This document shows, one piece after another, positions 1 to 53,413 of a DNA stretch of 53,413 nt; the stretch's first letter is position 1; the number at the start of each line of letters is the position of its first letter. Source of the DNA: an uncultured Bacilli bacterium (GTDB taxonomy: Bacteria > Bacillota_I > Bacilli_A > RF39 > UBA660); contig CANQCI010000006.1 of assembly GCA_947589675.1 (NCBI GenBank), positions 1 to 53,413 of the forward strand, written 5' to 3'. The translations under genes and the position numbers were made by a program. The notes under the pieces were generated by a model, which saw nothing but the letters and a program-made list of their open reading frames with translations, was not told where the DNA came from and searched no databases.

Positions 1-79
1 TACCAATTTTTTATTTCATTTACTTTGAGACTTTATTTGCTAGGCAAATCAGTTTCATTTACTTTGAGAAGTCACCTAA
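1..79. mobile_element. Terminus of an insertion sequence running off the left edge
   Basis: The reverse complement of this stretch matches the last ~80 bases of the window (53334-53413) with only scattered mismatches. It contains a 17-base motif twice, at 14-30 and 53-69 (core CATTTACTTTGAGA). Paired short repeats behind a TG tip are typical of IS ends where transposase binds, and the IS21 family is my best guess. The tip lies at or near position 74, or at 79 if the CCTAA shared by both ends belongs to the element. No transposase is in the window. Confidence 0.65.
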
Positions 80-83
80 GAAG

Positions 84-432
84 AATAAAATATCGGTGTT
101 ATCATTAATGTACAGATGATTATGGATTTGCAAGTGCATCAAGCAGTTGGACATCAACCTTATATAATTATGATAATTCCGGTAATAATAACCGAGAAAA
201 TAACTGGTTATTTAACAATGTAATGGAATGGACTATATCGCGCAGCTCCAGCTATTCCAACTATGCGTTCATTGTCAGCAGCCTCGGGCGTGTGATCAGC
301 TACAGCGTCAGCGGCGTCAACGGCAGCCGTGCGTACGGGGTTCGGCCGTCCTTTTATCTGAAGTCTGATGTGAAGATTAAAGTTGATGATGCAACAGGTG
401 ATGTTAATCATCCATTCCGTATTGTTGTGTAG
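84..432 (+). pseudogene. C-terminal remnant of an exported DGR-target-like protein
   Basis: From 109 the frame reads a domain that aligns with the C-terminus of the intact protein encoded at 46784-48400. Shared features are the DYGFA/DYAYA motif, a W-T-S motif, NNWL, a VMEW/VYEW motif and a final VRPxFYL. Upstream the frame is broken. A TAA lies at 106-108, and the expected L-M-Y that precedes the DY motif is in another frame at 105-113, so there is a frameshift near 111-117. The 5' part is removed by the IS end at 1-79. No start codon with a ribosome site precedes the surviving part, so it is probably dead, although the last domain has no stop until 432. The final 120 bases have very different composition from the rest (see the variable-region entry). 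Confidence 0.7.
241..360 (+). other. Probable DGR variable region (VR)
   Basis: Counting by hand, 72 of 120 bases are G or C (60%) in a genome of about 30% GC. The codons are dominated by AGC, TCC, TAC, AAC, ATC, GTC, GGC and CGC. That is the set produced when the two adenines of AAC codons are randomised, the signature of adenine-directed mutagenesis in diversity-generating retroelements. It sits at the extreme C-terminus just before a conserved GVRPSFYL, where VRs of C-type-lectin-like targets usually end. No reverse transcriptase or template repeat is visible in this window, so the donor would have to lie elsewhere in the genome. Confidence 0.55.
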
Positions 433-449
433 CAAAAAGAGAACCAAAG

Positions 450-469
450 CTCTTGAAATATTTCAAGAG
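450..469. other. Perfect 20-bp palindrome downstream of the VR
   Basis: Positions 450-469 read CTCTTGAAATATTTCAAGAG, a perfect dyad that can be drawn as an 8-bp stem with a 4-base loop. It begins 18 bases after the stop codon of the DGR-type fragment. Some DGRs have such a hairpin downstream of the VR that aids retrohoming. There is no T-run directly after it, so it is not a standard terminator, although a T-run occurs at 485-491. Confidence 0.45.
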
Positions 470-539
470 AAACTTAAAATGGTGCTTTTTTCGTACTTAG
501 TTAACTAAAATTATGATAAAATAAAATTAGGTGATTAAT

Positions 540-2201
540 GTGTATAAAAGCAATGAGGAATTAATTAAAACTTTAAATGAATTATTATTAAATGCTGAAA
601 ATGAATGTGTAGAGTTTAAAAAAGCTACAAATAATTTTGATATTGATACTTTAGGTAAATATTTTTCCGCTCTTGGTAATGAAGCTAATTTAAAAAATAG
701 ACAATATTCATGGATTGTTTTTGGGGTTGATGATAGAACTCATGAAATAATAAATACTAATTTTTATAAAGATAGTAACTTTAATAAATTAAAAAAACAA
801 ATTTCTGATAATACTACCGATAATATAAGTTTTATCGAAATATATGAAGTATTAAAAGATAATAAAAGAGTGATAATGTTTCAAGTTCCCGCCGCATCGG
901 GTACTCCTATCAATTGGAAAGGATTTCCATATGGAAGAAATGGCGAGTCTTTATCGCCTTTAGCTCCTAATAAAATAGAACAAATTAAAGCAACCGCTAA
1001 TTATGATTGGTCAAGACAAGTTATAGAAGAAGCAACAATAGATAATTTAGAAAAAAAGGCAATTCAAAAGGCTAGGGAACAATTTAAAATAAAATATAAA
1101 GATAAAAGTATTGCGGATGAAGTTGATGATTTATCAGATATTGATTTTTTAAATAAAGCAAAATTAACTTTGAATAATAAAATTACTATGGCTTGTATGT
1201 TATTATTAGGTAAAAATGAAGATGATTATTTAATGAATGGTTATACACCTAGAATGACATGGAAATTATATGATGAATTTAATGTTATAGATTATGAACA
1301 TTTTGGTATTCCTTTTATTATAAATGTTGAAAAAATAAAAGCTAAAATAAGAAATTTAAGATATAGATATATGATTAATGATAATACATTGTTTCCAAAT
1401 GAAGTAGATCAATATGATAATTACATTCTTCGCAAGCTTATCAACAACAGCATTGTCCATCAGTGCTACTTGCTACATGGAATAATAAATGTTATGGAAT
1501 TTAAAGATAAGTTAATAATAACTAATGAAGGTAGTTTTATTCCTGAAACAATTGAAAATGTTTTAAAAGATGGATTTTCATCACCATACTATCGAAATCA
1601 ATTTTTAGCAAATGCCATGGTTAATTTAAATATGATTGATACTGTGGGAAGTGGAATAAGAAGAGTTTATGATATTCAAAAGAAAAAATTCTTTCCAATG
1701 CCTGATTATGACTTAAGTGAAAGTAATCGTGTCAAAGTAACTTTATATGGCAAAATAATAGATGAAAATTATAGTAAAATATTGTTTGAAAAAACAAATT
1801 TAGATATTGATAAAGTTATGCTACTTGATAGAGTCCAAAAAGGTTATGAAATAACTAAAGAACAAAGTGATTATTTAAGAAAAGATAATTTGATTGAAGG
1901 TAGATATCCAAATATTTATATTTCTTCTGATATTGCTAAAATAACTGGCAACAAAGAAGAATATGTATATAACTCTGGATTAGAAAATGAATTTTATATG
2001 GAAATAATTATGAAATACATAAATGAATATGGTTCAGCAACTAGAAAAGAAATTATTGCTTTATTAAATGATAAGCTTCCTAAGTCATTAGATAGTAAAA
2101 ATAAAGTTAATAGGGTAAGATATTTATTAGATACATTAAAAAAAGAAGGAAAGATTTATAATGATGCAAAATCAGGAGGCTCATGTTGGAAAGCTAAGTA
2201 A
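540..2201 (+). CDS. AlbA_2/Schlafen-type putative ATP- and nucleic-acid-binding protein
   Basis: The N-terminus has the AlbA_2 (SLFN) signature, with an ECVEFK motif followed by a long helix and WIVFGVDD. The middle (~residues 300-400) has the HATPase_c_4-like module of this family: NNSIVH, INVMEF, a GS.IPETI-like stretch and TVGSGIRR. The C-terminal ~80 residues look like a winged helix (E-F-Y-M-E-I-I to the end). These proteins are described as predicted transcriptional regulators or ATP-dependent nucleic-acid-binding factors, often in mobile or defence contexts. I chose the GTG at 540 because AGGTGATTAAT lies just upstream, matching the site of several other genes here; a GTG at 531 would overlap that site. 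A 57-base patch at 1426-1482 has about 44% GC against a very AT-rich background. Confidence 0.7.
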   Translation: MYKSNEELIKTLNELLLNAENECVEFKKATNNFDIDTLGKYFSALGNEANLKNRQYSWIVFGVDDRTHEIINTNFYKDSNFNKLKKQISDNTTDNISFIEIYEVLKDNKRVIMFQVPAASGTPINWKGFPYGRNGESLSPLAPNKIEQIKATANYDWSRQVIEEATIDNLEKKAIQKAREQFKIKYKDKSIADEVDDLSDIDFLNKAKLTLNNKITMACMLLLGKNEDDYLMNGYTPRMTWKLYDEFNVIDYEHFGIPFIINVEKIKAKIRNLRYRYMINDNTLFPNEVDQYDNYILRKLINNSIVHQCYLLHGIINVMEFKDKLIITNEGSFIPETIENVLKDGFSSPYYRNQFLANAMVNLNMIDTVGSGIRRVYDIQKKKFFPMPDYDLSESNRVKVTLYGKIIDENYSKILFEKTNLDIDKVMLLDRVQKGYEITKEQSDYLRKDNLIEGRYPNIYISSDIAKITGNKEEYVYNSGLENEFYMEIIMKYINEYGSATRKEIIALLNDKLPKSLDSKNKVNRVRYLLDTLKKEGKIYNDAKSGGSCWKAK

Positions 2202-2219
2202 ATTTTCTTGATTGGTTTT

Positions 2220-2323
2220 GCCGCTTTTTTGCCGCTTTCGCCGCTTTTTTGCCGCTTTTTTGCCACTTTCGCCGCTTTTTTGCCACTTTTTTTGCCACTT
2301 TCGCCACTTTTTTTGCCACTTTG
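2220..2323. repeat. GC-containing short tandem repeat array
   Basis: About ten imperfect units of 9-12 bases, GCCGCTTTTTT, GCCGCTTTC, GCCACTTTC and GCCACTTTTTTT, follow one another without spacers. They lie between the AlbA_2 gene and nfo. Early units have GCCGC and later ones mostly GCCAC, which suggests stepwise expansion. The frame through it is open and in frame with nfo, but its translation is a low-complexity run of Phe, Pro, Leu, Cys and His that is not part of any Nfo protein. Confidence 0.85.
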
Positions 2324-2394
2324 CAATTTTCTTTTGCTTAAAGAAAGATGACATTCTTTCTTTTTTTCTTTATAATATAGATGGTGATGAAGTT

Positions 2395-3294
2395 ATGCTT
2401 ATTATTGGTTCTCATGTTAATTTTGGCTCTAATCAATTAGTCGGGGCAGTAAACCGAGCCCTAAGTTATGGGGCAAATACATTTATGTTTTATACGGGAG
2501 CTCCTCAAAATACGATACGAAAAAAATTAGAACCAGCTTATATTAATGAAGCAAAAAAATTAATGCAAGAGGGAGGAATTAATCTTGAAAATGTGATTTG
2601 TCATGCCCCTTATATTGTTAATTTAGCTAATAAGGAAAAAGAAGAGGCTTGGCATTTTTCCATTAATTTTTTAAAACAAGAAATCCAAAGAGTAGAAGAA
2701 CTAGGGGTTAAATATTTAGTATTGCATCCAGGGAACGCTCTTAAAATAGAAAGAGATGTAGCTCTTAATAATATTAGTGAAGCTTTAAATGCGATTATAA
2801 ATGAAGATAGTAAAGTAATGATTCTTTTAGAAACCATGGCTGGCAAAGGGACTGAATGTGGTAAAACGACTGAGGAAATTAAAACTATCATGGATGGGGT
2901 TTTACTTCAAGATAAAGTGGGGGTTTGCCTAGATACTTGTCATTTAAATGATGCTGGTTATGATATAAATGAATTTGATGAATACTTAAAAGAATTTGCT
3001 TCCATAATTGGGATAGATAAAATAAAATGTGTCCATATTAATGATAGTAAAAATGGTTTAGGAAGTCATAAGGATCGCCATGCTAATCTGGGATATGGAA
3101 CTATTGGCTTTACTAATCTTGTTAAAGTCGTATATCATGAATTATTAAAAGATGTTCCTAAAATATTAGAAACACCTTGGCTTGGAGATTATCCTCCTTA
3201 TAAATTTGAAATTGCCATGCTTAAAGATAAGACTTTTAATCCTAACTTAGAAGCTGATGTTAAGGAATTTTATAAAAATGAACGAAATTTTTGA
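2395..3294 (+). CDS. nfo: Endonuclease IV (AP endonuclease)
   Basis: Zn-dependent apurinic/apyrimidinic endonuclease of base excision repair. It cuts the backbone 5' of abasic sites. The 299-residue protein begins with IIGSHV and continues with ANTFMFYTGAPQN, then HAPYIVNLA, LVLHPG, a LLETMAG glutamate, VCLDTCH, VHINDSK and DRHANLGYG, which supply the His/Glu/Asp ligands of the three-metal site. It ends near ILETPW. The start is the ATG at 2395, because the upstream in-frame extension is only the tandem repeat. In Bacillus subtilis nfo (yqfS) is next to yqfT, and the same neighbour is present here on the opposite strand, overlapping the 3' end by 25 bases. Confidence 0.93.
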   Translation: MLIIGSHVNFGSNQLVGAVNRALSYGANTFMFYTGAPQNTIRKKLEPAYINEAKKLMQEGGINLENVICHAPYIVNLANKEKEEAWHFSINFLKQEIQRVEELGVKYLVLHPGNALKIERDVALNNISEALNAIINEDSKVMILLETMAGKGTECGKTTEEIKTIMDGVLLQDKVGVCLDTCHLNDAGYDINEFDEYLKEFASIIGIDKIKCVHINDSKNGLGSHKDRHANLGYGTIGFTNLVKVVYHELLKDVPKILETPWLGDYPPYKFEIAMLKDKTFNPNLEADVKEFYKNERNF

Positions 3295-3530
3295 AAGTAT
3301 TCATTAAAAACTTGTTTAACTTTTTTAAAGTTTTCCTCAGAGTAATGACTTTTATAACGATTTATATCAAAAACATCAGGATTTTTTAAAATATCTTGCC
3401 AATTTTTCTTGATAAAATCATAAGTAAACTCAGATTCAGACTCACTTAGTTCACAGTTTTTACTTCGAGCAAAGCGAATAACATCTTCTTTGCTAAAATT
3501 TTGCATATACCTTTCAATTATATTATACAT
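3270..3530 (-). CDS. DUF2624 (YqfT-like) protein
   Basis: An 86-residue soluble, mostly helical protein with a K-E-D-V-I-R-F-A motif near the N-terminus. That pattern and the position beside nfo fit the DUF2624/YqfT family, which is of unknown function. In Bacillus subtilis yqfS (nfo) and yqfT are also neighbours. Here the gene is convergent with nfo, and the last 25 bases of the two genes overlap. A purine-rich stretch with AGGTGATTTT lies directly upstream of the start on the minus strand. The family assignment rests mainly on synteny and size. Confidence 0.55.
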   Translation of the reverse strand: MYNIIERYMQNFSKEDVIRFARSKNCELSESESEFTYDFIKKNWQDILKNPDVFDINRYKSHYSEENFKKVKQVFNEYFQKFRSFL

Positions 3531-3582
3531 AAAATCACCTAATATATTGTATGAAAAAAGAATTTATTGAAATACTAATAAT

Positions 3583-5535
3583 ATGAAAAAAAGTAAAGTA
3601 TTTGGTATTTTATTATTAATATTATTTTTTAGTATCTTAACTATTAAGTTAATCTTTTTAAATGGGGTAAAACATGAATATTATGAAGATTTACTTAAAA
3701 ATAAAACGCAAGTTTATATAAATGGAACAAGTGCTCCACGGGGAAGAATAATTGATTGTAATGGCAAAGTTTTAGTGGATAATATTGGCGTTAATACGAT
3801 AATTTATCATAAGATAAAGGGTATAACCAGTGGGGAAGAAATAAATATTGCTCGCACCCTTGCTTCTTTTTTAAATACCGAATTAGCTAATGAAAGTGAG
3901 TTAAAGAATTTTTGGTTAGTTTTAAATAATAATGGTAAAAATTTAATCACCGAAGAAGAATATCAACTTTTAGAAGAAAGAAAATTAACTAAAGACGATT
4001 TAGAAAGATTAAAAAAAGAAAGAATTACCGAAGAATTATTAAGTACTTTAGATGAATTAGATCAAAAGAGTGCTCATATTTATGCCTTAATGAATGCGGG
4101 ATATAATTATCAAAATAAGATAATTTATCAAAATCCTAGTCCTGAGGAATATGCGTTAGTTTTAGAAAAAGGGATTCCCGGAATTACGGGGGAAATGACT
4201 TGGGAGAGAGTATATAATTATAATGATACTTTAAAAAGTATCTTGGGAAGTATAGGAAGTATTTCGAAAGAAGAAAAAGAAGAATATTTAAAAAAGGGTT
4301 ATGAATTAAGTGATATTGTGGGGATTAGTTATTTAGAAAAAGAATATGAAGATTATTTAAAAGGGACAAAAGCTTTATATCGAGTAAATAAAGATAATAC
4401 TTTAAATTTAGTTAAGGAAGCTAGTCGGGGAAATGATTTAGTTTTAGCAATTGATATTGAAACCCAGATGAAAGTAGAAGAAATATTGAAAGAAAAAATC
4501 TTGGCGAAGAAAAATTATCGCAATACCGAATATTATAAAGACTCTTATGCTATTGTGGGTTCTCCTTCCACGGGGGAAATTGTTGCCATGGCAGGAGTAC
4601 GGCTTAATGATGATGGCACTTTTAGTGATATAACTAGTAATATTATTAATACCTCTTATACCATGGGTTCGGCAGTGAAAGGAGCCACCATTAGTGTAGG
4701 TTATAAAAATAATTTAATTGAAATGGGAAAGTATATCACGGATAGTTGTGTTAAATTACATTTAGTTCCTTATAAATGTAGTCATGCTAGGTTAGGACGA
4801 ATTAATGACTTAGATGCTTTAGCTCAGTCATCAAATTATTATCAATATATGATAGCAATTAATTTGGTTGGAAAAAAATATTATAAAGATATGGTTTTAG
4901 GAGCCACCAAAGAACACTTTGATATTTATCGGGATACTTTAAAAGAATATGGGCTTGGCACTTTAACGGGGATTGATTTACCAAATGAAGAAATTGGGAT
5001 TATTGGTTCCACGATAGCTGATGATTTGCTTCTTAATTTAGCCATTGGGCAATATGATACTTATACGCCAATTGAAATGCTTCAATATATTAATAGTATT
5101 GCCACAGGCTCTCGTTTAAAATTAAGTTTGATGCAAAGTATTGTTAAAGATGATCAAGTTATTAAGAAAAATTCGCAAGAAGTTTTAAATAAAATTAATC
5201 TTGACCCCATTTATTTAGACCGCATTAGATTGGGGATGCAAAAAGTTTTACAAGAGGGAACCGGTCGAGGTTTTACAAACCAAGCCCTTAATGCAGTCGG
5301 GAAAACGGGGACTAGTGAATCTTTTTATGATGCGGATAATGATGGGAAAGTAGATGTGGAAACTATTACCTCTACTTTTGTTGGTTACTTTCCCAAAGAT
5401 AATCCAGAGTATAGTGTGGTAGTAATAACCCCGAATATTTCCCATAAGAATGGCAAAGATAATACCAAATACTATGGAGCTTATAAAATAACCCGAGCCA
5501 TAACTGATTATTTAGGAAATATTATTGAAAGATGA
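3583..5535 (+). CDS. Class B penicillin-binding protein (PBP2-like transpeptidase)
   Basis: Membrane-anchored D,D-transpeptidase that cross-links peptidoglycan. One transmembrane segment (about residues 6-26) is followed by the dimerisation domain, which opens with a SAPRGRIID motif. The transpeptidase domain has all three active-site motifs: SxxK as S363-A-V-K366, SxN as S416-S-N418, and KTG at K574. At 650 residues it is a usual size. There is an unusual charged helical insert around residues 105-160. No clear Shine-Dalgarno site precedes the ATG. The two nearest upstream elements are a weak TTGTAT and a TACTAAT only a few bases before the start, so a leaderless or nearly leaderless transcript is possible. 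A terminator follows at 5562. Confidence 0.9.
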   Translation: MKKSKVFGILLLILFFSILTIKLIFLNGVKHEYYEDLLKNKTQVYINGTSAPRGRIIDCNGKVLVDNIGVNTIIYHKIKGITSGEEINIARTLASFLNTELANESELKNFWLVLNNNGKNLITEEEYQLLEERKLTKDDLERLKKERITEELLSTLDELDQKSAHIYALMNAGYNYQNKIIYQNPSPEEYALVLEKGIPGITGEMTWERVYNYNDTLKSILGSIGSISKEEKEEYLKKGYELSDIVGISYLEKEYEDYLKGTKALYRVNKDNTLNLVKEASRGNDLVLAIDIETQMKVEEILKEKILAKKNYRNTEYYKDSYAIVGSPSTGEIVAMAGVRLNDDGTFSDITSNIINTSYTMGSAVKGATISVGYKNNLIEMGKYITDSCVKLHLVPYKCSHARLGRINDLDALAQSSNYYQYMIAINLVGKKYYKDMVLGATKEHFDIYRDTLKEYGLGTLTGIDLPNEEIGIIGSTIADDLLLNLAIGQYDTYTPIEMLQYINSIATGSRLKLSLMQSIVKDDQVIKKNSQEVLNKINLDPIYLDRIRLGMQKVLQEGTGRGFTNQALNAVGKTGTSESFYDADNDGKVDVETITSTFVGYFPKDNPEYSVVVITPNISHKNGKDNTKYYGAYKITRAITDYLGNIIER

Positions 5536-5561
5536 CTAAAAAATTTTTCGGGGTAATTTAA

Positions 5562-5604
5562 AAAATAGTAGCGATTGACTTAAAATAATGCCTACTATTT
5601 TTTT
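5562..5604 (+). terminator. Rho-independent terminator after the PBP gene
   Basis: Arms AAAATAGTAG (5562-5571) and CTACTATTTT (5592-5601) pair perfectly around a 20-base loop, and a run of seven T follows. It lies 27 bases after the PBP stop codon. Confidence 0.7.
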
Positions 5605-5731
5605 ATTTTCGGAAAAAGGAAATTGATTTTTAAAATGTTTTTAGTATAATAAGTATGAGGCAGTTAATGTTATGAAACTTTAAGAATTGGGATTTATTTT
5701 GGATTTAAGAAGAAAGGAGAAGATAGATATT

Positions 5732-6166
5732 ATGAATATAGAATTTAATAATCGGGAAGATTGGCAAAAAGGGATTAAAATATTTTTGGAAAATTCCACA
5801 GTTCCCTACGAAAGTGAATATAAGTGGCCACCAGCTATTTATGATGAAAATGGCAATGTATTTTTTGAATTTAATGAATATACTGATTATGTTCCTGAGA
5901 AAAGAAATATTATGGACTTATCTGATGAAGAAAAGGAAAAAATAGTAAGATTATTTAATTTTAATGATTTTAAGGAATTATTAGAATTGTTTAATATTAG
6001 GGAAGAAGCCTACTTTAAAGCTTGGGTTGGAATAGATAAAGATAATATGGAAGAAGAAATAGATAGGGCATTAAAAGAAGCTTTTGGATATAGTCTTACA
6101 ACAATTAGTGAAGAAGAATATAATGAGAGTATGGAATTAAACGAATTAGATTTAGAAGATGAGTAA
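5732..6166 (+). CDS. Hypothetical acidic protein
   Basis: I do not recognise this 144-residue protein. It is soluble, strongly acidic, rich in aromatic residues in the first third (YKWPPAIYDENGN) and helical and charged towards the end (many Glu and Asp, ending in EDE). There is no signal peptide or membrane segment. The start is the ATG at 5732, preceded by AAAGGAGA; an upstream in-frame ATG at 5687 lacks a ribosome site. It stands alone between the PBP gene and rpmG, each with its own signals. Confidence 0.6.
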   Translation: MNIEFNNREDWQKGIKIFLENSTVPYESEYKWPPAIYDENGNVFFEFNEYTDYVPEKRNIMDLSDEEKEKIVRLFNFNDFKELLELFNIREEAYFKAWVGIDKDNMEEEIDRALKEAFGYSLTTISEEEYNESMELNELDLEDE

Positions 6167-6207
6167 TCCTTTTTAAGGATAATTTCATCTTTTTAGGGAC
6201 AATTTAC

Positions 6208-6235
6208 TTGTAATTTGCCGATTATTTGGTATAAT
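6208..6235 (+). promoter_or_regulatory. Sigma-A-type promoter for rpmG-efp
   Basis: TTGTAA (6208-6213), a 16-base spacer and a perfect TATAAT (6230-6235) lie about 30 bases ahead of the rpmG start. A strong GAGGAG ribosome site follows. Confidence 0.65.
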
Positions 6236-6265
6236 TAAGGAGATTGTTAGTGAGGAGGATAAATT

Positions 6266-6430
6266 ATGGCTAAGAAAGAAAACCGGAGCGAAGTAACGAT
6301 GAGATGTTCAGTATGTGGGTATGAATTACGTCCTGTTAGTAAAAATAAAAAGAATACTCCGGATCGTTTAGAATTAAATAGATATTGTCCAAAATGTCGT
6401 AAGACAGTTCTAGCTAAAGAAAAAAAATAA
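6266..6430 (+). CDS. rpmG: 50S ribosomal protein bL33, zinc-binding form
   Basis: A 54-residue small basic ribosomal protein with the bL33 signature NKKNTPDRLELNRYCPKCRK. Four cysteines in two CxxC pairs (C14/C17 and C41/C44) mark it as the zinc-binding (C+) type rather than the zinc-free paralogue used under zinc limitation. It has a strong GAGGAG ribosome site and its own promoter. efp starts 23 bases downstream, so the two are probably co-transcribed. Confidence 0.93.
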   Translation: MAKKENRSEVTMRCSVCGYELRPVSKNKKNTPDRLELNRYCPKCRKTVLAKEKK

Positions 6431-6452
6431 CAAATAGAAAAGGTGAAATTAA

Positions 6453-7013
6453 GTGGATATAAATATTAATGATATAAAAAATGGTATGACCATTATTATG
6501 GATGGTAACCTTTGTAATATTGTGGAATTTCAACATGTAAAACCAGGAAAAGGACCAGCATTTGTCCGGATTAAACTTAAGAATTTACGCACTGGGTCAG
6601 TTGTCGAAAATACTTATAATACTAATATTAAAGTAACGAAAGCTCATATTGATAAAGTTCATGCTCAATACTTATATAGTAGTGGTGATAACTATGTTTT
6701 TATGAATAATACTAGTTATGAACAAATTGAAATTAATTCTAGTGTTTTAGGAGATGCGGTTAACTTTATTAAAGAAGGTTTAGAAATTGATATTGATTCT
6801 TATGAAGGCGAAATAATTGGCATAACTTTACCTGAAAAAGTGGAATATGAAGTTATTGAAACTGAACCAGCGGTAAAAGGTAATACGGCAACAAATGCTT
6901 CTAAAGATGCCAAGATTGAAACTGGTTATATTGTAAAGGTTCCTTTATTTATTAATCAAGGGGAAAAAATTATTATTTCAACTAAAGACGGAAAGTATTC
7001 TAGTCGAGCTTAA
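6453..7013 (+). CDS. efp: Elongation factor P
   Basis: Translation factor that relieves ribosomes stalled at proline runs by entering the E site. The 186-residue length is standard. The KOW-like N-terminal domain has NGMTIIMDGNLCNIVEFQHV and then KPGKGPAFVR, the loop that carries the modifiable lysine. Two OB domains follow, ending with the usual VPLFINQGEKIIISTKDGKY. It starts with GTG, preceded by AAAAGGTGAAATTAA. It is downstream of rpmG and is followed at once by a terminator. Confidence 0.95.
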   Translation: MDININDIKNGMTIIMDGNLCNIVEFQHVKPGKGPAFVRIKLKNLRTGSVVENTYNTNIKVTKAHIDKVHAQYLYSSGDNYVFMNNTSYEQIEINSSVLGDAVNFIKEGLEIDIDSYEGEIIGITLPEKVEYEVIETEPAVKGNTATNASKDAKIETGYIVKVPLFINQGEKIIISTKDGKYSSRA

Positions 7014-7041
7014 AATTGTTAGAGAAATTTAACAATTTTTT
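7013..7041 (+). terminator. Rho-independent terminator after efp
   Basis: AAATTGTTA (7013-7021) pairs with TAACAATTT (7030-7038), followed by T-rich sequence. The stem starts on the last base of the efp stop codon. Confidence 0.75.
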
Positions 7042-7069
7042 TGTTTTTTTAAAAACTTTATTGTATACT
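7041..7069 (+). promoter_or_regulatory. Promoter of the first giant paralogue
   Basis: TTGTTT (7041-7046), exactly 17 bases, then TATACT (7064-7069). The -10 is embedded in TTTATTGTATACT, which also occurs just before the second and third paralogues (around 10622 and 14936), followed each time by a TTAAGATAGG-like leader. Confidence 0.65.
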
Positions 7070-7094
7070 TTATTTAAGATAGGGTGTATAAATA

Positions 7095-10000
7095 GTGAAA
7101 TTAAAGAATATGACTTTAAAAGAGATTTATAATAGATATGGGCTAGGAGATATCTTTGCTAAGGAGATAATAAAGCGTTATAAAAAAGATAGGCGAAACT
7201 ATCCTAATAATAATGCTAGATTAGATTTTAAGGAATTAAAGCAAATATTTAATTCAGAATTAATAGCTGTGGATTATTTATTAAATCTTTTACATATAGA
7301 TTTTTTAAAATTAGCTAGATTAATGGATAGTATATCAAGAGAAGTTTGTGAAAAATACTTATCTTATGATTATGACTGGTTAGATAATTATGATTTAGTC
7401 GAGGAAGTAGATTCCGAATTTTTATTAAAAACTTTATTAATAGATGAACAAATAATTAATTATTCGTATGTTGATTTAAGGAATCTTTTAAAAAATATAT
7501 CTAGTGATGATATTAATAAATTTATTCTAAATAATAATATAGATTATGATATAGTATTATTTTTTTGGAGTAAATCTATTAATGAATATGAAATATCTAA
7601 TGAATTATTTAATAAATATTTAACTAATAATTATAGTTGGTTAAATGAATATAATTTAGTAGAAAAAATAAATCCTCTTAAGTTATTAGAAATATTATTA
7701 ATAGATAAACAAATAATTAATTATCCTCATATTGATTTAAGTAAATTATTAATGAAAGTATTAAGTAGTGATATTAATGATTTTATTTTAAATAATAATA
7801 TTGAAGCTGATATAGTATTATTATTTTTAGGACGAGAAGATATTGCTGGTTATAAAATATTAGGGGATATGTGGGGATATAAAGTAGCGGGAGAAATATT
7901 TAATAGATATTTAGTTAAAGATTATAGATGGCTTAATAATAAAGATATTTTAAATAAAATAGATGATAATGATTTAATAAAGTATTTTATGGAACATCAA
8001 GATATAATTATTAATAATTATGAAAATAAAAAAGCTTTTTTTAATATTAATGATATTATTACGGTTAAAATAATAGAAGTTAGTTTATTAAAAAAAGAAT
8101 ATGATAATATTATTGAATTAATTAAAAATGATGAAAGTTTAGCTTGGTTAATTCCGGAGAAACTAAATAATGAAGAAGAAAAAAGAAAAGTATTAATTAT
8201 TTGTAAAGAATATAGTAGTTTAAAATATAATAAGAATAATTTTAAAGTATATGTTAATAAAAATTATGAGCAAATTAATGAAAAAAATATTAAGTATATA
8301 ATTAAATTAATTAATCGGGTTAGTTTATCTAATTCAAGTGAGTTAAGACGGGTTAGTGATGAGGTTATTAAGGCTTTGATTAATGCTTCCAATGCTTTTG
8401 GCAAACTGGAGAGGATTGAAAATTTATTTTTGAAAAATAATATTCCTTTCGTGGGCAAAGCTTATGCGGTGTTTGATATATTATATCCGGATAAAACGAA
8501 AGTAGGGCAAGAGATGCTTTCCCCAGTTTTACAAAATTGGCAAGGGTTTTACCGTGAGGTTATTATTTTTGCCGATTTAATTAAGGCTTCCTTTGGTTCC
8601 AATAATCGCTCGATTAGAGATTATTTACAAAATATTGAAAAGGGTAATACTTTATTTAATAAAATTAGTAAGGGCGAAGTAAGTTATGAAAATTTATGTA
8701 ATGAAGAAAAAATCGTAATAGATACCTTTTGTAATCATTTAATTACTTTGTATGAAAGAACGAAAAAGGGGAAAAAGGAAGAGTTAGATTTTCATAAAAA
8801 CCCCGTGGAAACTTTACAAATATTAAAAGAAAAGTTTTCGACAGATGGGCATGTAGACTATGATTTACCCAATCGAATTGTCAAAATGTTTTGTCACTTC
8901 GCAGGTATTAATACTTTAAAAGATGCCAAAGCTTATATGGAAATGAAGGTAAAAAAAGCGGATGCGAGAAACCGGCAAAGAGGTATGCAGCCTTTGGAAT
9001 TTAAAGAGGGCGATTTTGTTAAGGGGATTGGTGAGATAACTTATTTAAGAACCATTTTACAAAATGGTTCGGTCGCTCGAGAGTTTTTAGGTGGTAATGC
9101 GGATAGTGATGCCACTCCCCTTGATACTGATGTATGTCGGCTTGCGAATGACCAAAATATTGGTGATGCTATAGCTAAAACGCCGGCGATAGACTATGGA
9201 CCAATTTACTTTGTTCTTAAAAATGATAGTCGCTTTGTGTTAACTCGGGATAGGAAAGGAAATACCTATCAGGGAAGTCCGAATAAGTTAGAAGTATTTT
9301 ATACGGGTTATCTTGGCGATACCCATTATGGGATTCGCACCGGCTTTGCTTCGAGTGAAATTGATTATATTGTGGTTCAAGATTATGATGAACGGCTGGG
9401 TTTAGAAATAGCTATCAATGGTTTTTATATTCCGGTGAGTGATTTTAATGGCAAAATTGTTTTTACGCCCAAAGACTATGATAATCTCAGAGGAAAAATG
9501 CAAGGTTTAAGTTATTTAGGAAGTAATAATTATCAAGTATCTCCCTATTTAAATAACGAGGGAACCAAAGAAATGCTTACAATCAAGCAGGTATTAGCCC
9601 CGACCGAAAATAAGAAATTAAGTAAAATTACCAAAATAATAAAGGAAGCGGTAGAAAAATGCCATTTAGAATTAAAGCTGGGTTATGATGGGAATTTAGA
9701 AGAGGGCAAAGTTGAATTATTAAATACAGGTTCTACGGCAAGGCAAACCAATCTTCCCCGTAATGCTGATTATGATTATATTTTAAGAATCGATACCACT
9801 ATTATGAAAGATAAGGATAACTTAGCAAAATTTTTAAATAATTTAAAACAATATATTCAAGCAGAACAAGTAATAATTGATGCTAATAAAATAAGATTTT
9901 TAAAGGTTGATTTGGGCGATGGTGAAAGAGCCGACATTGACTTAAGTTATATGGCTAAATTAGATAAACTGGAATATTCGACGGAAGTAGCCCTAGAAGA

Positions 10001-45697: not shown

Positions 45698-46681
45698 ATG
45701 GAACTAAATAAAATGAAATTTATTGATTTATTTGCTGGCATTGGAGGATTTCGATATGCTCTTGAGTCGTTTGGGAGCCAGTGTGTTTTTTCATCGGAAT
45801 GGGATAAATATTGTCAAGAAAGTTATAATTTAAATTTTGGTGAAATCCCTTATGGCGATATAACCAAAATAGCTGAAAAAGATATTCCTAATTTTGATAT
45901 TTTATGTGCTGGATTTCCTTGCCAACCATTTAGTATCTCGGGAAAACAAAAAGGTTTTGAAGATACACGAGGAACTTTATTTTTTGATATCGTACGAATT
46001 GTTAGATATCATAAACCTAAAGTTATTTTTTTAGAGAATGTTAAAAATTTAAAAGCTCATAATGGGGGAGCAACTTTTAAAGTTATTTCTAATACCTTTG
46101 ATAGCTTAAATTATAATATATATTATAAAGTTTTAAATGCTAAAGATTTTAATTTACCCCAAAATAGAGAAAGAATTACTATTGTTTGTATAAGAAAAGA
46201 TATTGATAATGGTAAATTTAAGTTTCCTGATGCATCCCCAGAATTTACCACGATTAGTGATATAAAAGAAGATGATTCTCTTACAAGTAAATATATCATT
46301 GATAGACAAGATATTTATATAGATGAAAACAAATTAAATGAAGCTATAAAAAATGGACGAGTTTCTAAGCCCTTACAAATTGGGGTTATAGGAAAAGGGG
46401 GGCAAGGAAATCGAATTTACCATGAAAATGGGATAGGAATAACTTTAGCCGCTTCAAGTGGTGGTGCCGCCTCCAAAACAGGTGCTTACTATATTAATGG
46501 TAAAGTAAGAAAGTTAAGTCCAAGGGAAGCCGCAAGATTACAAGGTTTTCCCGAAGAATTTAAGATAATAGAAAATGACAATCAATCATTAAAACAATTT
46601 GGTAATAGTGTTCCAATTAATTTACTAAAAGAAATTTTAAAAGGTTTAAAAGATATTGATAGAGAGATATTACCAAATTAA
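45698..46681 (+). CDS. DNA (cytosine-5) methyltransferase, orphan
   Basis: 327 residues with all C5-methyltransferase motifs: FIDLFAGIGGFRYAL (I), the catalytic loop GFPCQPFSISGKQ (Cys75), VIFLENVKNL (VI), LPQNRERI (VIII), a target-recognition region, and GNSVP near the end (X). It methylates cytosine in double-stranded DNA; the target is not readable from sequence. No restriction enzyme or very-short-patch repair gene is next to it, so it acts as an orphan or lost its partner. The ATG is preceded by GGGTGGTGAT. It lies in an accessory patch between polC and the flavoproteins, which suggests acquisition. Confidence 0.9.
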   Translation: MELNKMKFIDLFAGIGGFRYALESFGSQCVFSSEWDKYCQESYNLNFGEIPYGDITKIAEKDIPNFDILCAGFPCQPFSISGKQKGFEDTRGTLFFDIVRIVRYHKPKVIFLENVKNLKAHNGGATFKVISNTFDSLNYNIYYKVLNAKDFNLPQNRERITIVCIRKDIDNGKFKFPDASPEFTTISDIKEDDSLTSKYIIDRQDIYIDENKLNEAIKNGRVSKPLQIGVIGKGGQGNRIYHENGIGITLAASSGGAASKTGAYYINGKVRKLSPREAARLQGFPEEFKIIENDNQSLKQFGNSVPINLLKEILKGLKDIDREILPN

Positions 46682-46715
46682 ATTCGTAAGTCTTTTTACG
46701 TCAAATAATGCTAAC

Positions 46716-46758
46716 TATAATATTTGCTTATTGCAAATATTATATCTACGTAGATATA
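46716..46758 (+). promoter_or_regulatory. Two adjoining palindromes upstream of the exported protein gene
   Basis: TATAATATTTGC (46716-46727), 5 bases, GCAAATATTATA (46733-46744) is a perfect 12-bp inverted repeat. It runs into TATATCTACGTAGATATA (46741-46758), a perfect 18-bp palindrome. The ATG lies 26 bases further on. They could be operators or a transcript-end hairpin for the methyltransferase gene; there is no long T-run. Confidence 0.6.
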
Positions 46759-46783
46759 ATAAAAATATAAGGTTGATGATAAA

Positions 46784-48400
46784 ATGACAGGAAAGAAAAA
46801 AATAAGTATTATAGCATTATTACTTTTACTGGTGTGTGTAATTAGTGCGACTTATGCTTACTTTGTTGCTCAAAAGGGAAGTGGAGGGAGTGCTAATATT
46901 AATGTGGAAGCTGGCACTACTGATTCACTAACTTTTAAAAGTGGTCCAGCCATAAATATTATCGCTAATAGTGATAACTTTGCTAAGAACAAAGGTAATC
47001 AATCTGGTGAAACCCAAGTTAGTGCTCATTTAGTTGCCAATAATGGTAATTATACAGCAACTGAACAATATTATGTCTATGTTGAAGTTCAAGAAAATCC
47101 TTTTTTATATTCTCAAGAGGAAACACCAGAGTTAATATTACAAATAACTGATCCTGAGGGAAATGCCGTAGATACCATTGAAATGAAAGGTATAGATTAT
47201 GTAACAATAAATGCTAATAGTGAAAATGAAATTAAAGGATTTGATATTACAACTTATGAGGGATTAATAGCGATTAAAAATAAAGAAGAAATAAGTGCTG
47301 AACCAAATGAAGAAGTTCCTGAACAAAATGGAATTGCTGATGAAACATGGCAAATTAAAGTCATCTTTATTAATTTAGATACTGACCAACAAGTAAATAC
47401 CGGAAAAACTTTTCGAGCTCAAGCTTTAATTCAACATGAAGAAAAAAAGATAGTTCGAACATTAGCTAATTATGTTACTAGTCAATATCAATCGCAAGGT
47501 TATAATGGCATTTATCTTCATGATGAAACTTTAGATAATGGTGCCGCAGATAATTCGTATCGTTATACGGGAAGTAATCCTAATAATTATGTTTGCTTTG
47601 GTTCAGGTAGTGAAGAATATAATCGTGATGGCACAGGTGAATGTCCCGACACTAATCTCTATCGGATAATTGGCGTATTTGATAATCAAGTTAAATTAAT
47701 AAAATCAGAATATATTACAAAAGAAGAATTAGGGTTAGGTGATTTAGAATTTGGTCAAAATGAAAACGGTTTAAATGTTAAAGATACTTATACAGAAGTA
47801 GCCCGAGTTAAAAAGAAAGAAAATATTCATTCATTTTCTTGGAGCGGTAACCCCAGTGTTAAAGATAATAATTGGTCGAATAGTGAACTTAAAAATGCTT
47901 TAAATAATCCTGATGTTAATTATTATTTAGGAAAACTAGGGGATTGGGAAAGTTTAATAGCCAAAACTAAGTGGCATGTTGCTGATTATGATGTTCCTAA
48001 TGTAACTCCTAAACAAATATTAGAACAAGAAAATAGTGAAGATGCTACAATAGTAGAAGCTAAAATTGGTTTGATGTACCCTAGTGATTATGCTTATGCC
48101 GCGAGTAGTGATAATTGGACAAGTAATCTTGCTGATTATAATAATGAAACTAATTGTAATAATAATTGGTTATATAATGGTGTTTATGAATGGTTGCTTT
48201 TAAGTGAAACCTTGTTTGGCAATATATTTTCCTATACCACCTTTAGTTCTGGCTTAGTAGGAGGATTAAATGCTGAGTCCCAATCAGCAGTAAGACCAGC
48301 CTTTTATTTAGATAGCAAAAAAGCTACAATTGTTGATGATGAAACTAAAGATGGTTCCGTTACCAAGCCAATTCGGCTAAATGTTCCTGAAAGTAACTAA
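46784..48400 (+). CDS. Large exported protein with DGR-target-like C-terminal domain
   Basis: 538 residues. A signal peptide (residues 1-25, with SIIALLLLLVCVISATYAYF) resembles those of the TasA/CalY type handled by SipW-like peptidases. Residues ~26-215 form a strand-rich domain. From about residue 230 there is a second domain with NNYVCFGSG, LYRIIGVFDNQVKLIK, SFSWSG, NNWSNSELKNALN, LMYPSDYAYAAS, NNWLYNGVYEWLL and VRPAFYLDS. The C-terminal part aligns with the fragment at 109-432. Here the stretch before VRPAFYL is AT-rich, so no active variable region is apparent. No sortase motif or membrane anchor is visible at the end. The protein is probably secreted and could bind a ligand or surface. 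Confidence 0.65.
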   Translation: MTGKKKISIIALLLLLVCVISATYAYFVAQKGSGGSANINVEAGTTDSLTFKSGPAINIIANSDNFAKNKGNQSGETQVSAHLVANNGNYTATEQYYVYVEVQENPFLYSQEETPELILQITDPEGNAVDTIEMKGIDYVTINANSENEIKGFDITTYEGLIAIKNKEEISAEPNEEVPEQNGIADETWQIKVIFINLDTDQQVNTGKTFRAQALIQHEEKKIVRTLANYVTSQYQSQGYNGIYLHDETLDNGAADNSYRYTGSNPNNYVCFGSGSEEYNRDGTGECPDTNLYRIIGVFDNQVKLIKSEYITKEELGLGDLEFGQNENGLNVKDTYTEVARVKKKENIHSFSWSGNPSVKDNNWSNSELKNALNNPDVNYYLGKLGDWESLIAKTKWHVADYDVPNVTPKQILEQENSEDATIVEAKIGLMYPSDYAYAASSDNWTSNLADYNNETNCNNNWLYNGVYEWLLLSETLFGNIFSYTTFSSGLVGGLNAESQSAVRPAFYLDSKKATIVDDETKDGSVTKPIRLNVPESN

Positions 48401-48427
48401 AAAAAGCACAGTCGTGCTTTTTTTAGT
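48396..48427. terminator. Bidirectional terminator with 14-bp perfect arms
   Basis: ACTAAAAAAAGCAC (48396-48409) and GTGCTTTTTTTAGT (48414-48427) pair perfectly around a 4-base loop. It holds the stop codons of both convergent genes and serves both directions. Confidence 0.85.
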
Positions 48428-49997
48428 TATGATATTCTTTAATGATTGCCTCAGCTACTCTAATGCCATCCATAGCCGAAGTGGTTATACCGCCCGCATA
48501 TCCAGCTCCCTCGCCACAAGGATAAATTCCTTTAATATTGGCTTCGTAATTTAAATCCCGCAATATTCGGACGGGGGAAGATGTTCTGGTTTCAATTGCC
48601 GCAAAAAGAGTATCAGGGTTGGCAAAGCCTTGGATTTTTTTGGCAAATTCCGGCATCGCCTCGGTAATTGCCTCAATCATAAAGTCAGGTAATATTTCAT
48701 GTAAATTGGCTAAAGTATAGTTTCCTTTAGTTAAAGGTTCAAAATTTAATTTTTGACTTTTTTCTTTTAAAAGAAAATCTTGATAAGTTTGAATAGGGAT
48801 ATAGCCTTTTCCTACTTGATAAGCTTTAGCTTCTAGTTTTTCTTGAAAACTTATGCCATCTAAAGGATTAGCACCAAAATCATTTGGCGTGATGGTAACT
48901 ACAATTGCACTGTTAGCTTGCTTAGAATCTCGTTTATAATTACTCATTCCATTTATGGCTAAATGATTTTTAACGCTTGAGGCATTAACGACATAACCAC
49001 CGGGACACATACAAAATGTATATACGCCACGGTTGTTCTTAGCTTTATAAGTTAATTTGTAACTAGCTGGAGGTAAAAGAGAAGCATATTTACCATACTG
49101 AGCTTCATTTATTAATTTTTGGTCATGCATAACTCTAATTCCCATGGCAAAAGGCTTAGCTTCCATCACGATATTTTTTTCATAAAGTAAACGGAAAGTA
49201 TCTCTAGCACTGTGGCCAATAGCAAGAATTAAATGCCCACAGGGGATAATTTCTTTTTGGTTAATTTCAATTCCCGTTAATACATTATCAGTAATGATTA
49301 GGTTCGTAAGCTTGGTTTCAAAAAGAAACTTTCCACCCATAGCAATAATTTTTTGCCGTAAGTTTTTAATGACAATTCGTAATTTATCAGTGCCAATGTG
49401 AGGCTTTTGTAAATATTTAATTTCCGCCGGTGCTCCACATTCAACAAAGATTTCCATGACTTTTTTTTGTAAAAAATTCGGGTCTTTTTTTAAAGTATTT
49501 AACTTACCATCAGAAAATGTCCCAGCACCGCCTTCACCAAATTGGACATTACTTGTTTCATTTAATTTATTAGTTTGCCAAAATAAATTAACATCTTGGC
49601 ATCTTTCCTCAAGGCTTTTTCCTTGTTCAATAACTAAAGGCTTATAGCCAAGATGAGCTAAAAGATAAGCCGCAAATAAACCAGCTGGCCCGGCTCCCAC
49701 GATTATAATTTGTCCTCTTAAAGTTTTGGTACCAGGGGTAGGGTAGATATATTTTTCTTGTGGTGCTAAAAATATATCAGGGTTATGTAAATGTTTTAAA
49801 ATATTTTTTTCATTTTTTAATTTAACATCAAATTCATAAATATAAACAACTTCTTGACGAGCATCCAAAGATTTTTTTTGAATAATAATCTCTTCAATAT
49901 TCTTAACATCAGTTTTTAATAACTTAGCTATTTTCTTTTGTTGATATAATAAATTATCCTCAGAAATGGGAATTTTTACTTGTCTTAAGCGAATCAT
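48423..49997 (-). CDS. FAD-dependent dehydrogenase of the COG2509 type
   Basis: 524 residues, Rossmann-type flavoprotein. The first ~95 residues form a separate alpha/beta domain. The FAD site is IIVGAGPAGLFAAYLL with LVIEQG, followed by SNVQFGEGGAGTFSDGKL, then TFCMCPGGYVVNAS and YPCGEGAGYAGGITTSAMDG, the usual signatures of this uncharacterised family. The substrate is unknown. AGGAGGAAGAA lies before the ATG. The start overlaps the 3' end of the next minus-strand gene by 38 bases, so the two flavoproteins are an operon read right to left. Confidence 0.9.
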   Translation of the reverse strand: MIRLRQVKIPISEDNLLYQQKKIAKLLKTDVKNIEEIIIQKKSLDARQEVVYIYEFDVKLKNEKNILKHLHNPDIFLAPQEKYIYPTPGTKTLRGQIIIVGAGPAGLFAAYLLAHLGYKPLVIEQGKSLEERCQDVNLFWQTNKLNETSNVQFGEGGAGTFSDGKLNTLKKDPNFLQKKVMEIFVECGAPAEIKYLQKPHIGTDKLRIVIKNLRQKIIAMGGKFLFETKLTNLIITDNVLTGIEINQKEIIPCGHLILAIGHSARDTFRLLYEKNIVMEAKPFAMGIRVMHDQKLINEAQYGKYASLLPPASYKLTYKAKNNRGVYTFCMCPGGYVVNASSVKNHLAINGMSNYKRDSKQANSAIVVTITPNDFGANPLDGISFQEKLEAKAYQVGKGYIPIQTYQDFLLKEKSQKLNFEPLTKGNYTLANLHEILPDFMIEAITEAMPEFAKKIQGFANPDTLFAAIETRTSSPVRILRDLNYEANIKGIYPCGEGAGYAGGITTSAMDGIRVAEAIIKEYHN

Positions 49998-52605: not shown

Positions 52606-53337
52606 ATGTTAATTAAAATTGCGGGTTTTATATTAAGTGAAGTTCCCTATGGGGAAAGTAGTAAAATAATTAATGTTTTAACCGAGGAATATGGTCTAAT
52701 TGGAATTATGGCAAAGGGAGCTAAAAGTATTAAAAGTAAGAATCGGGTTGCTACTTTAAAATATAGTTATAGTGAATTTTCAATTTATTATAAAAAAGAT
52801 AAATTATCTTTATTGAAAAGTGCGGATATTATTAATCCTTTAAAAAATATTAAAAGTGATATTATTTTAATAAGTTATGTAACTTATTTAGCTGAGTTAG
52901 CTAATCAAGTAATGAAACAAAGTAATGGGGATAATATTTATAATGATTTTATTAAAGGAATATTAAAGATTGAAGAAGGATTAGATCCTTTAGTAATTAC
53001 CAATATTTTAGAAGTAAAGTTTTTAGATTGTTTAGGTGTGGGTTTTAATATTGATAGTTGTGTTAAATGTGGAACGCAAAAAAAGATTATTACGATAAGT
53101 CCTGATGCGGGTGGTTTTATTTGTGAAGATTGTTTAACTAATGAATATTTAGTACCAATTAATGTTATTAAACTTATAAGAATGTATTATTATGTAGATA
53201 TAAAAAGTATTACGAAATTAAATATAGTTAAAGAAGAAAAACAAATTATTAATAAATTTTTAGATAATTATTATGAAAAATATACAGGAATATATTTAAA
53301 TAGTAAGAAGTTTTTAAAAAATATCTTAGGTTATTAG
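52606..53337 (+). CDS. recO: DNA repair protein RecO
   Basis: 243 residues, RecFOR recombination mediator that loads RecA on SSB-coated DNA. The N-terminal OB fold has VLTEEYGLIGIMAKGAKS, and the helical domain carries the four-Cys zinc site (CVKCGTQ and CEDC). The length is near that of Bacillus RecO, and the end (YLNSKKFLKNILGY) looks complete. The stop codon lies within the TTAGG shared by both IS ends, so the element inserted at or right next to the end of the gene. In Bacillus recO follows era-yqzL; here it lies 25 kb away. Confidence 0.93.
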   Translation: MLIKIAGFILSEVPYGESSKIINVLTEEYGLIGIMAKGAKSIKSKNRVATLKYSYSEFSIYYKKDKLSLLKSADIINPLKNIKSDIILISYVTYLAELANQVMKQSNGDNIYNDFIKGILKIEEGLDPLVITNILEVKFLDCLGVGFNIDSCVKCGTQKKIITISPDAGGFICEDCLTNEYLVPINVIKLIRMYYYVDIKSITKLNIVKEEKQIINKFLDNYYEKYTGIYLNSKKFLKNILGY

Positions 53338-53413
53338 GTGAATTCTAAAAGTAAATGCAACTGACAAATTAAGAAAATAAAGTCTAAAAGTAAATACAAT
53401 TAAAAATTGGCAA
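53334..53413. mobile_element. Terminus of an insertion sequence running off the right edge
   Basis: From TTAGGTGAATTCT onward this matches the reverse complement of positions 1-79. The 17-base motif TCTAAAAGTAAATGCAA and a near copy ending TACAA occur about 40 bases apart, as on the left. The two ends differ at about a fifth of positions, so they belong to related but not identical elements, both pointing out of the window. Confidence 0.65.

Follow-up and report, generated by a model that had tools for sequence, protein, structure and literature searches.

The window analysed here is a stretch of 53,413 nucleotides that makes up the whole of contig C6 in the draft genome (60 contigs, 1.46 Mb) of an uncultured bacterium, a gut-type member of the Bacilli. 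An initial annotation, made from the letters alone, had noted near its start a GC-rich 120-base stretch at the C-terminus of a lectin-like domain, and had proposed that it was probably the variable region (VR) of a diversity-generating retroelement (DGR), with no reverse transcriptase nearby. The GC contrast was confirmed: positions 236-355 contain 60% GC against 28.7% across the window, the top-ranked 120-base GC windows all lie at 229-239, and none that reaches 55% GC starts past base 460. The surrounding open frame, 109-432, was likewise confirmed. It starts right after a TAA stop codon at 106-108, has no upstream start codon, and finishes in ...GVRPSFYLKSDVKIKVDDATGDVNHPFRIVV; the motif GVRPSFYL, previously noted as the end of the region, is present at 337-360. 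The features of the window are as follows.

1-77, no strand assigned: end of an IS/MITE-like repeated element; the contig starts inside the element, and 4-77 matches the end of contig C56 at 100% identity.
78-117, no strand assigned: junction without homology to the target family, including the TAA stop at 106-108; local alignments with intact paralogs (C29, C4, C34) begin at 118.
109-432, plus strand: probable C-terminal fragment of a DGR target gene, truncated at its 5' end and lacking a start codon, with a DUF6273-like domain of C-type-lectin fold (from translation and paralog alignment).
241-348, plus strand: very probable DGR VR of 108 bases; 17/33 template adenines and 2/63 other bases changed in a gapped comparison (p = 4e-8).
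241-294, plus strand: ungapped VR block, with differences only on template adenines (10/19 adenines, 0/35 other bases).
295-336, plus strand: part of the VR whose length differs in frame, being four codons longer than the template on contig C37 within an AAC/GTC tract, from codon listings.
337-360, plus strand: shared 3' flank GGGGTTCGGCCGTCCTTTTATCTG (GVRPSFYL), a candidate IMH-type recognition site; its first 13 bases are common to the template, which diverges after GTTCGGCCGT.
46784-48400, plus strand: low-GC paralog of the target family, an ORF with a weak domain match and no template-matching VR, serving as a non-target control within the window.

A genome search with window positions 200-440 returned a dozen related 3' ends and a 71%-identical stretch of 99 bases (C37:15239-15337), located about 1 kb upstream of a reverse transcriptase (RT) gene at C37:13260-14333. 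The search for a template repeat (TR) beside a DGR-type RT, which the initial annotation had recommended, thus succeeded in the same genome: the TR is a non-coding repeat of about 97 bases, CGCAACTCCAGCAATTCCAACAATGCGTTCAATGTCAACAACAACGGGAATGTGAACAACAACAACGTCAACAAAATTGCGTTCGGGGTTCGGCCGT. On the minus strand of C37, the order is the 3' end of a target gene with its VR, the TR, a 124-aa MutS_I-like ORF, a 121-aa Avd-like ORF and the RT of 358 aa. The arrangement combines a TR near an RT with a VR at a target-gene 3' end that differs from the TR at template adenines. The RT contains LPIGNMTSQ and YMDD, conforming to the DGR-type motifs GxxxSQ (instead of QGxxxSP) and YxDD. It matches PHROG 1423 at 1e-69, and its best PDB match is 8ub7 (9.5e-26), which we take to be the BPP-1 enzyme. 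Two DGR-type accessory proteins accompany it: the MutS_I-like ORF, which scores above its profile cut-off, and the Avd-like ORF, whose E-values are significant (NCBIfam DivGenRetAVD 4e-9; PHROG 'Avd protein of DGR' 2.5e-9; Pfam bAvd 7e-5) but whose scores lie below the curated cut-offs of NCBIfam (36.7 of 80 bits) and Pfam. The gene resembling MutS domain I (L054, 3664-4035, minus strand) lies between the template and the Avd gene and is kept in a relative, G011.

RVT_1 matches in the genome fall on C37, C19, C5 and C9. None lies on C6, and no RT was present among the ORFs inspected at 1-8000 and 46500-49000 of the window, in agreement with the absence of a nearby RT noted initially. The C5 enzyme was ruled out as the server of the window VR by its group II intron maturase domain, and the C9 match is a short fragment with internal stops. 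The C5 gene (L056, 4178-5482) encodes a group II intron reverse transcriptase/maturase distinct from DGRs. The C37 DGR looks chromosomal, the location that we prefer because the cassette is followed on the contig by an ORF that, read by eye, resembles pyruvate phosphate dikinase. A prophage location was also considered; GGGGTTCGGCCGTCCTTTTATCTG had no exact match in viral contigs and RT matches there were only 31% identical.

We compared the window with the C37 template base by base. In the ungapped 54-base block 241-294, 10 of the 19 template adenines differ and none of the 35 other bases does (Fisher p = 4e-6). This block is the sole place in the window, on either strand, with no mismatch outside adenines; the next best place has 15. 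The gapped counts for the full VR listed above rest on a codon alignment biased towards adenine changes, and the ungapped block is therefore the cleaner test. The earlier expectation that differences would be limited to template adenines held in the ungapped block; over the gapped VR it failed at two non-adenine differences near the 3' end. The codons themselves are those expected from randomised AAC/AAT, as had been proposed.

The same pattern recurs in other genes. Against the C37 template, the VR of the C37 target differs at 19/33 adenines and 1/63 other bases, that of C7a at 21/33 and 2/63, C8 at 13/33 and 3/63, C40 at 22/33 and 4/63, and C43 at 15/32 and 4/61, while the VRs of C29, C4, C15 and C34a each show 6/63 non-adenine differences. 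Three paralogs have decayed, with 11 (C7b), 14 (C23) and 21 (C34b) non-adenine differences. The template fits about ten genes, namely the C37 gene, eight intact remote genes and the window fragment, which bears out the suggestion that a remote template and RT could serve several targets. The eight intact remote targets are 730-973 aa long and carry a hydrophobic segment at the N-terminus, after which comes an ATYAYF-type motif. In an alignment with 12 paralogs of the genome, the window copy is 70% identical to the C37 target.

The GC-rich 3' end of the VR, GGGGTTCGGCCGT, is common to the template, which diverges right after it, making this a candidate IMH-type site; the GGGGTTCGGCCGTCCTTTTATCTG flank is conserved in nearly all VR genes. 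A conserved hairpin just after the VR, as in BPP-1, was sought among the VR genes and not found. Hairpins occur about 90-180 bases past the VR, at varied places and without a common sequence, and are more terminator-like.

Taken together, these results indicate that window positions 241-348, the template-derived part, are the VR of a gene that is, or once was, targeted by a chromosomal DGR whose template and RT lie on C37 (probability roughly 0.94). By established DGR biology, copying of the template RNA would place random bases opposite adenines, and the resulting cDNA would replace the VR through homing at the shared GC-rich 3' flank. The outcome would be a varied binding face on surface proteins that keep their N-terminal membrane/signal segment. 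That C37 and C6 belong to the same genome rests on the binning of the 60-contig draft; a binning error is unlikely to matter because the template resembles ten loci.

The C37 template as it now reads leaves some differences in the window VR unexplained. Codon counts for the 3' half of the VR are 19 in the window, 15 in the C37 template and 14-17 in other VRs, always in frame. The window VR is 12 bases (four codons) longer than the template and has the two non-adenine differences near its 3' end, and therefore was not derived from that template in its current form. For the same two reasons, the exact parental template is absent from the assembly, in which the C37 template is the only one of its kind found. 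Several VRs end with an AAT-type codon, GCG, T[A/T/G]C and GGG; the C37 template reads ATT-GCG-TTC-GGG and that of G011 AAT-GCG-TTC. A template of the form GTG(AAC)4 GTC(AAC)2 GTC(AAC)3 AAT GCG TAC GGG, a reconstructed rather than observed sequence, would fully explain the window VR.

One refinement compatible with the C37 DGR reading is that the window VR was written by another template, either a third, unassembled one or a sister allele of the C37 template. We regard this as a genuine possibility, though somewhat short of an even chance. The length and 3' end of the window VR are unlike the C37 template, and the VRs of C6, C29, C4 and C40 have GCG-T[A/G]C-GGG instead of its ATT-GCG-TTC-GGG; an AAT-GCG form exists in the genus in the G011 template, and an additional pair of RT fragments occurs on C55 and C19. 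Against it, no further template of the C37 kind was found in the genome, the C55 template is unrelated in sequence, and slippage of DGR AAC tracts in steps of three has been described (PMC12875486). The C55 template, which belongs to a second DGR, has no match to the window and was ruled out as the source of its VR. The four extra codons may thus reflect either in-frame slippage in the AAC tract, as proposed for AAC repeats in DGRs (PMC12875486), or an older or sister template allele. More tentatively, and in our view rather doubtfully, the DGR may vary both the length and the sequence of its many dispersed surface proteins, with one AAC-rich template family slipping during reverse transcription to yield 14-19 codons in the 3' half, so that the AAC tract would act as a programmed randomiser over about ten targets.

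The window copy is probably a 5'-truncated remnant of a target gene, since the 5' part is lost where the IS-like element now ends. Its homology to intact paralogs starts at 118, and the sequence before that position is not homologous to the family. Given the missing start codon and the IS-like element on the 5' side, the present function of this copy is doubtful. Neither this truncation nor the extra length of the VR had been anticipated in the initial annotation. The element end at 4-77 shows about 80% identity with C6 positions 53331-53410, with C8 and with the end of C23, and 78% with C13; copies, complete or partial, occur where other contigs end and next to the targets on C8 and C23. Alternatively, the fragment could be functional, with the contig edge hiding an intact gene that is joined differently and the IS-like junction being an assembly chimera. 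The fragment does touch the contig end, repeats often cause mis-joins, and the VR frame is intact and resembles that of intact paralogs. We nevertheless consider this unlikely, as the element and the gene part are separated by 40 non-family bases and a stop codon, and other target genes (C8, C23) likewise have an end of the element at or near them. The lost 5' part was sought on C56, which carries the same element; other genes lie there. The element end, which has internal TTTCATTTACTTTGAGA repeats, is found at both C6 ends, on C56, C8, C23 and C13, and adjoins two other DGR targets. A 27-base tandem repeat encoding PVPPVAPTE units occupies positions 1-237 of L135 on C56.

Ordinary paralogous divergence or gene conversion in a surface-protein family, with the GC-rich stretch as a conserved or horizontally acquired module, is very improbable: the genome does hold about 30 paralogs of the domain, with repeated elements close to several copies, but the differences fall on template adenines (10/19 vs 0/35), such a bias is absent or marginal in low-GC paralogs, and a complete DGR with a matching template is present. 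Non-target paralogs used as controls differ from the C37 template at 42-64% of adenines and 43-59% of other bases. Among the low-GC controls, adenine bias is absent in C35, C14 and C39 and marginal in C19a (p = 0.046). Only part of the roughly 30 paralogs of the DUF6273-like, C-type-lectin-fold domain in this 1.46 Mb genome are DGR targets, and one gene on C12 carries two copies of the domain.

We predicted the structure of the C-terminal domain of the C37 target, which adopts a C-type lectin fold in the model (pLDDT 93, pTM 0.92). The model was built from a diverse set of 24 sequences; 13 near-identical ones gave a pLDDT of 32. Fold matches included the N-terminal part of a Thomasclavelia IgA peptidase (Z 15.9) and, at Z values below 8 that are supportive only, Treponema denticola variable protein 1 (Z 6.2), Legionella Lcl (Z 6.0), phage Mtd (Z 4.2) and C-type lectins (Z 4-5). 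The likeness to Legionella pneumophila Lcl and Mtd (8q4e, 1yu2) lies in the common C-type lectin fold and is one of fold similarity alone (Z 4-6).

Bordetella phage BPP-1 carries the DGR prototype, in which the target lies beside the RT. The present system shares with it the RT, Avd, template, adenine-directed change and a target with the C-type lectin fold, and AAC-tract slippage has been reported there (PMC12875486); unlike it, the system is chromosomal with mostly remote targets. Remote and multiple DGR targets have precedents in T. denticola, cyanobacteria and Thiohalocapsa (PMC4891356, PMC7517822, PMC10907252). In T. denticola, one template and one RT serve up to seven dispersed surface-protein targets, and truncated leftover targets of about 91 aa occur (PMC4891356). 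The C37 system resembles these TvpA-type remote targets in its single template and RT, dispersed targets, truncated remnants and C-type lectin fold. It differs in its occurrence in Bacilli, its DUF6273-type targets, of which about ten match the template and three are decayed, its in-frame VR length differences and the MutS_I-like ORF in the cassette. Thiohalocapsa PB-PSB1 is comparable in having several DGR loci, 15 target genes, targets in trans and transposon remodelling (PMC10907252). That multicellular proteobacterium has nine loci and conflict-system targets, whereas here two template families and surface-type proteins occur in a 1.46 Mb genome. Dispersed multi-target DGRs are therefore already documented, and the C37 system belongs among them; less ordinary are how many intact remote targets one template has within a small genome, and the fact that VR lengths differ in frame. 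A large metagenome survey states that remote targets are undetectable by its method (PMC8144416). The window illustrates how a DGR target can be identified from a lone GC-rich stretch at the edge of a contig, even with no template close by.

The second DGR has its template at C55:2731-2814. Its own target VR on C55 is changed at 9/25 adenines and 0/59 other bases, and its remote target on C8 at 14/25 adenines and 0/59 other bases. The RT of this DGR seems to be split, with one piece at an end of C55 and the other at an end of C19 (L088 on C55, 2219-4136; C19, 27866-28870). The breakpoints have inverted GTTCGGAAACTAA-type ends (read by eye), which suggests that an insertion split the RT while the remote VRs persist, on the assumption that C55 and C19 are joined.

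A related RT was found in 27 of the 59 genomes searched, the present genome included, and the named carriers of this kind of RT are mostly uncultured gut Bacilli/Tenericutes MAGs. The G011 cassette has the same gene order as that of C37, and seven further VR places in the G011 genome match its template. Of four G011 VRs checked without gaps, three have 0-3/63 non-adenine changes and the fourth 4/63. DGRs are thus widespread in the host genus, where many surface-protein genes of a small genome share one template. This makes the genus well suited to asking how a single RT can act on many targets and what causes changes in VR length.

A second cassette layout also occurs in the genus. In G014:C41, G004:C15, G012:C32, G017:C98 and G013:C17 (L146, L147, L156, L149 and L152, respectively), a template-like AAC-rich repeat lies directly 3' of the RT, compared with about 900 bases upstream in the other layout, and most of these repeats share the tail ...GAGCCCTAAATGTTTG. 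Within the window itself, positions 2216-2337 hold an imperfect tandem array between two genes, with units TTTTGCCGCTT and TTTTGCCACTTTCGCCGCTT.
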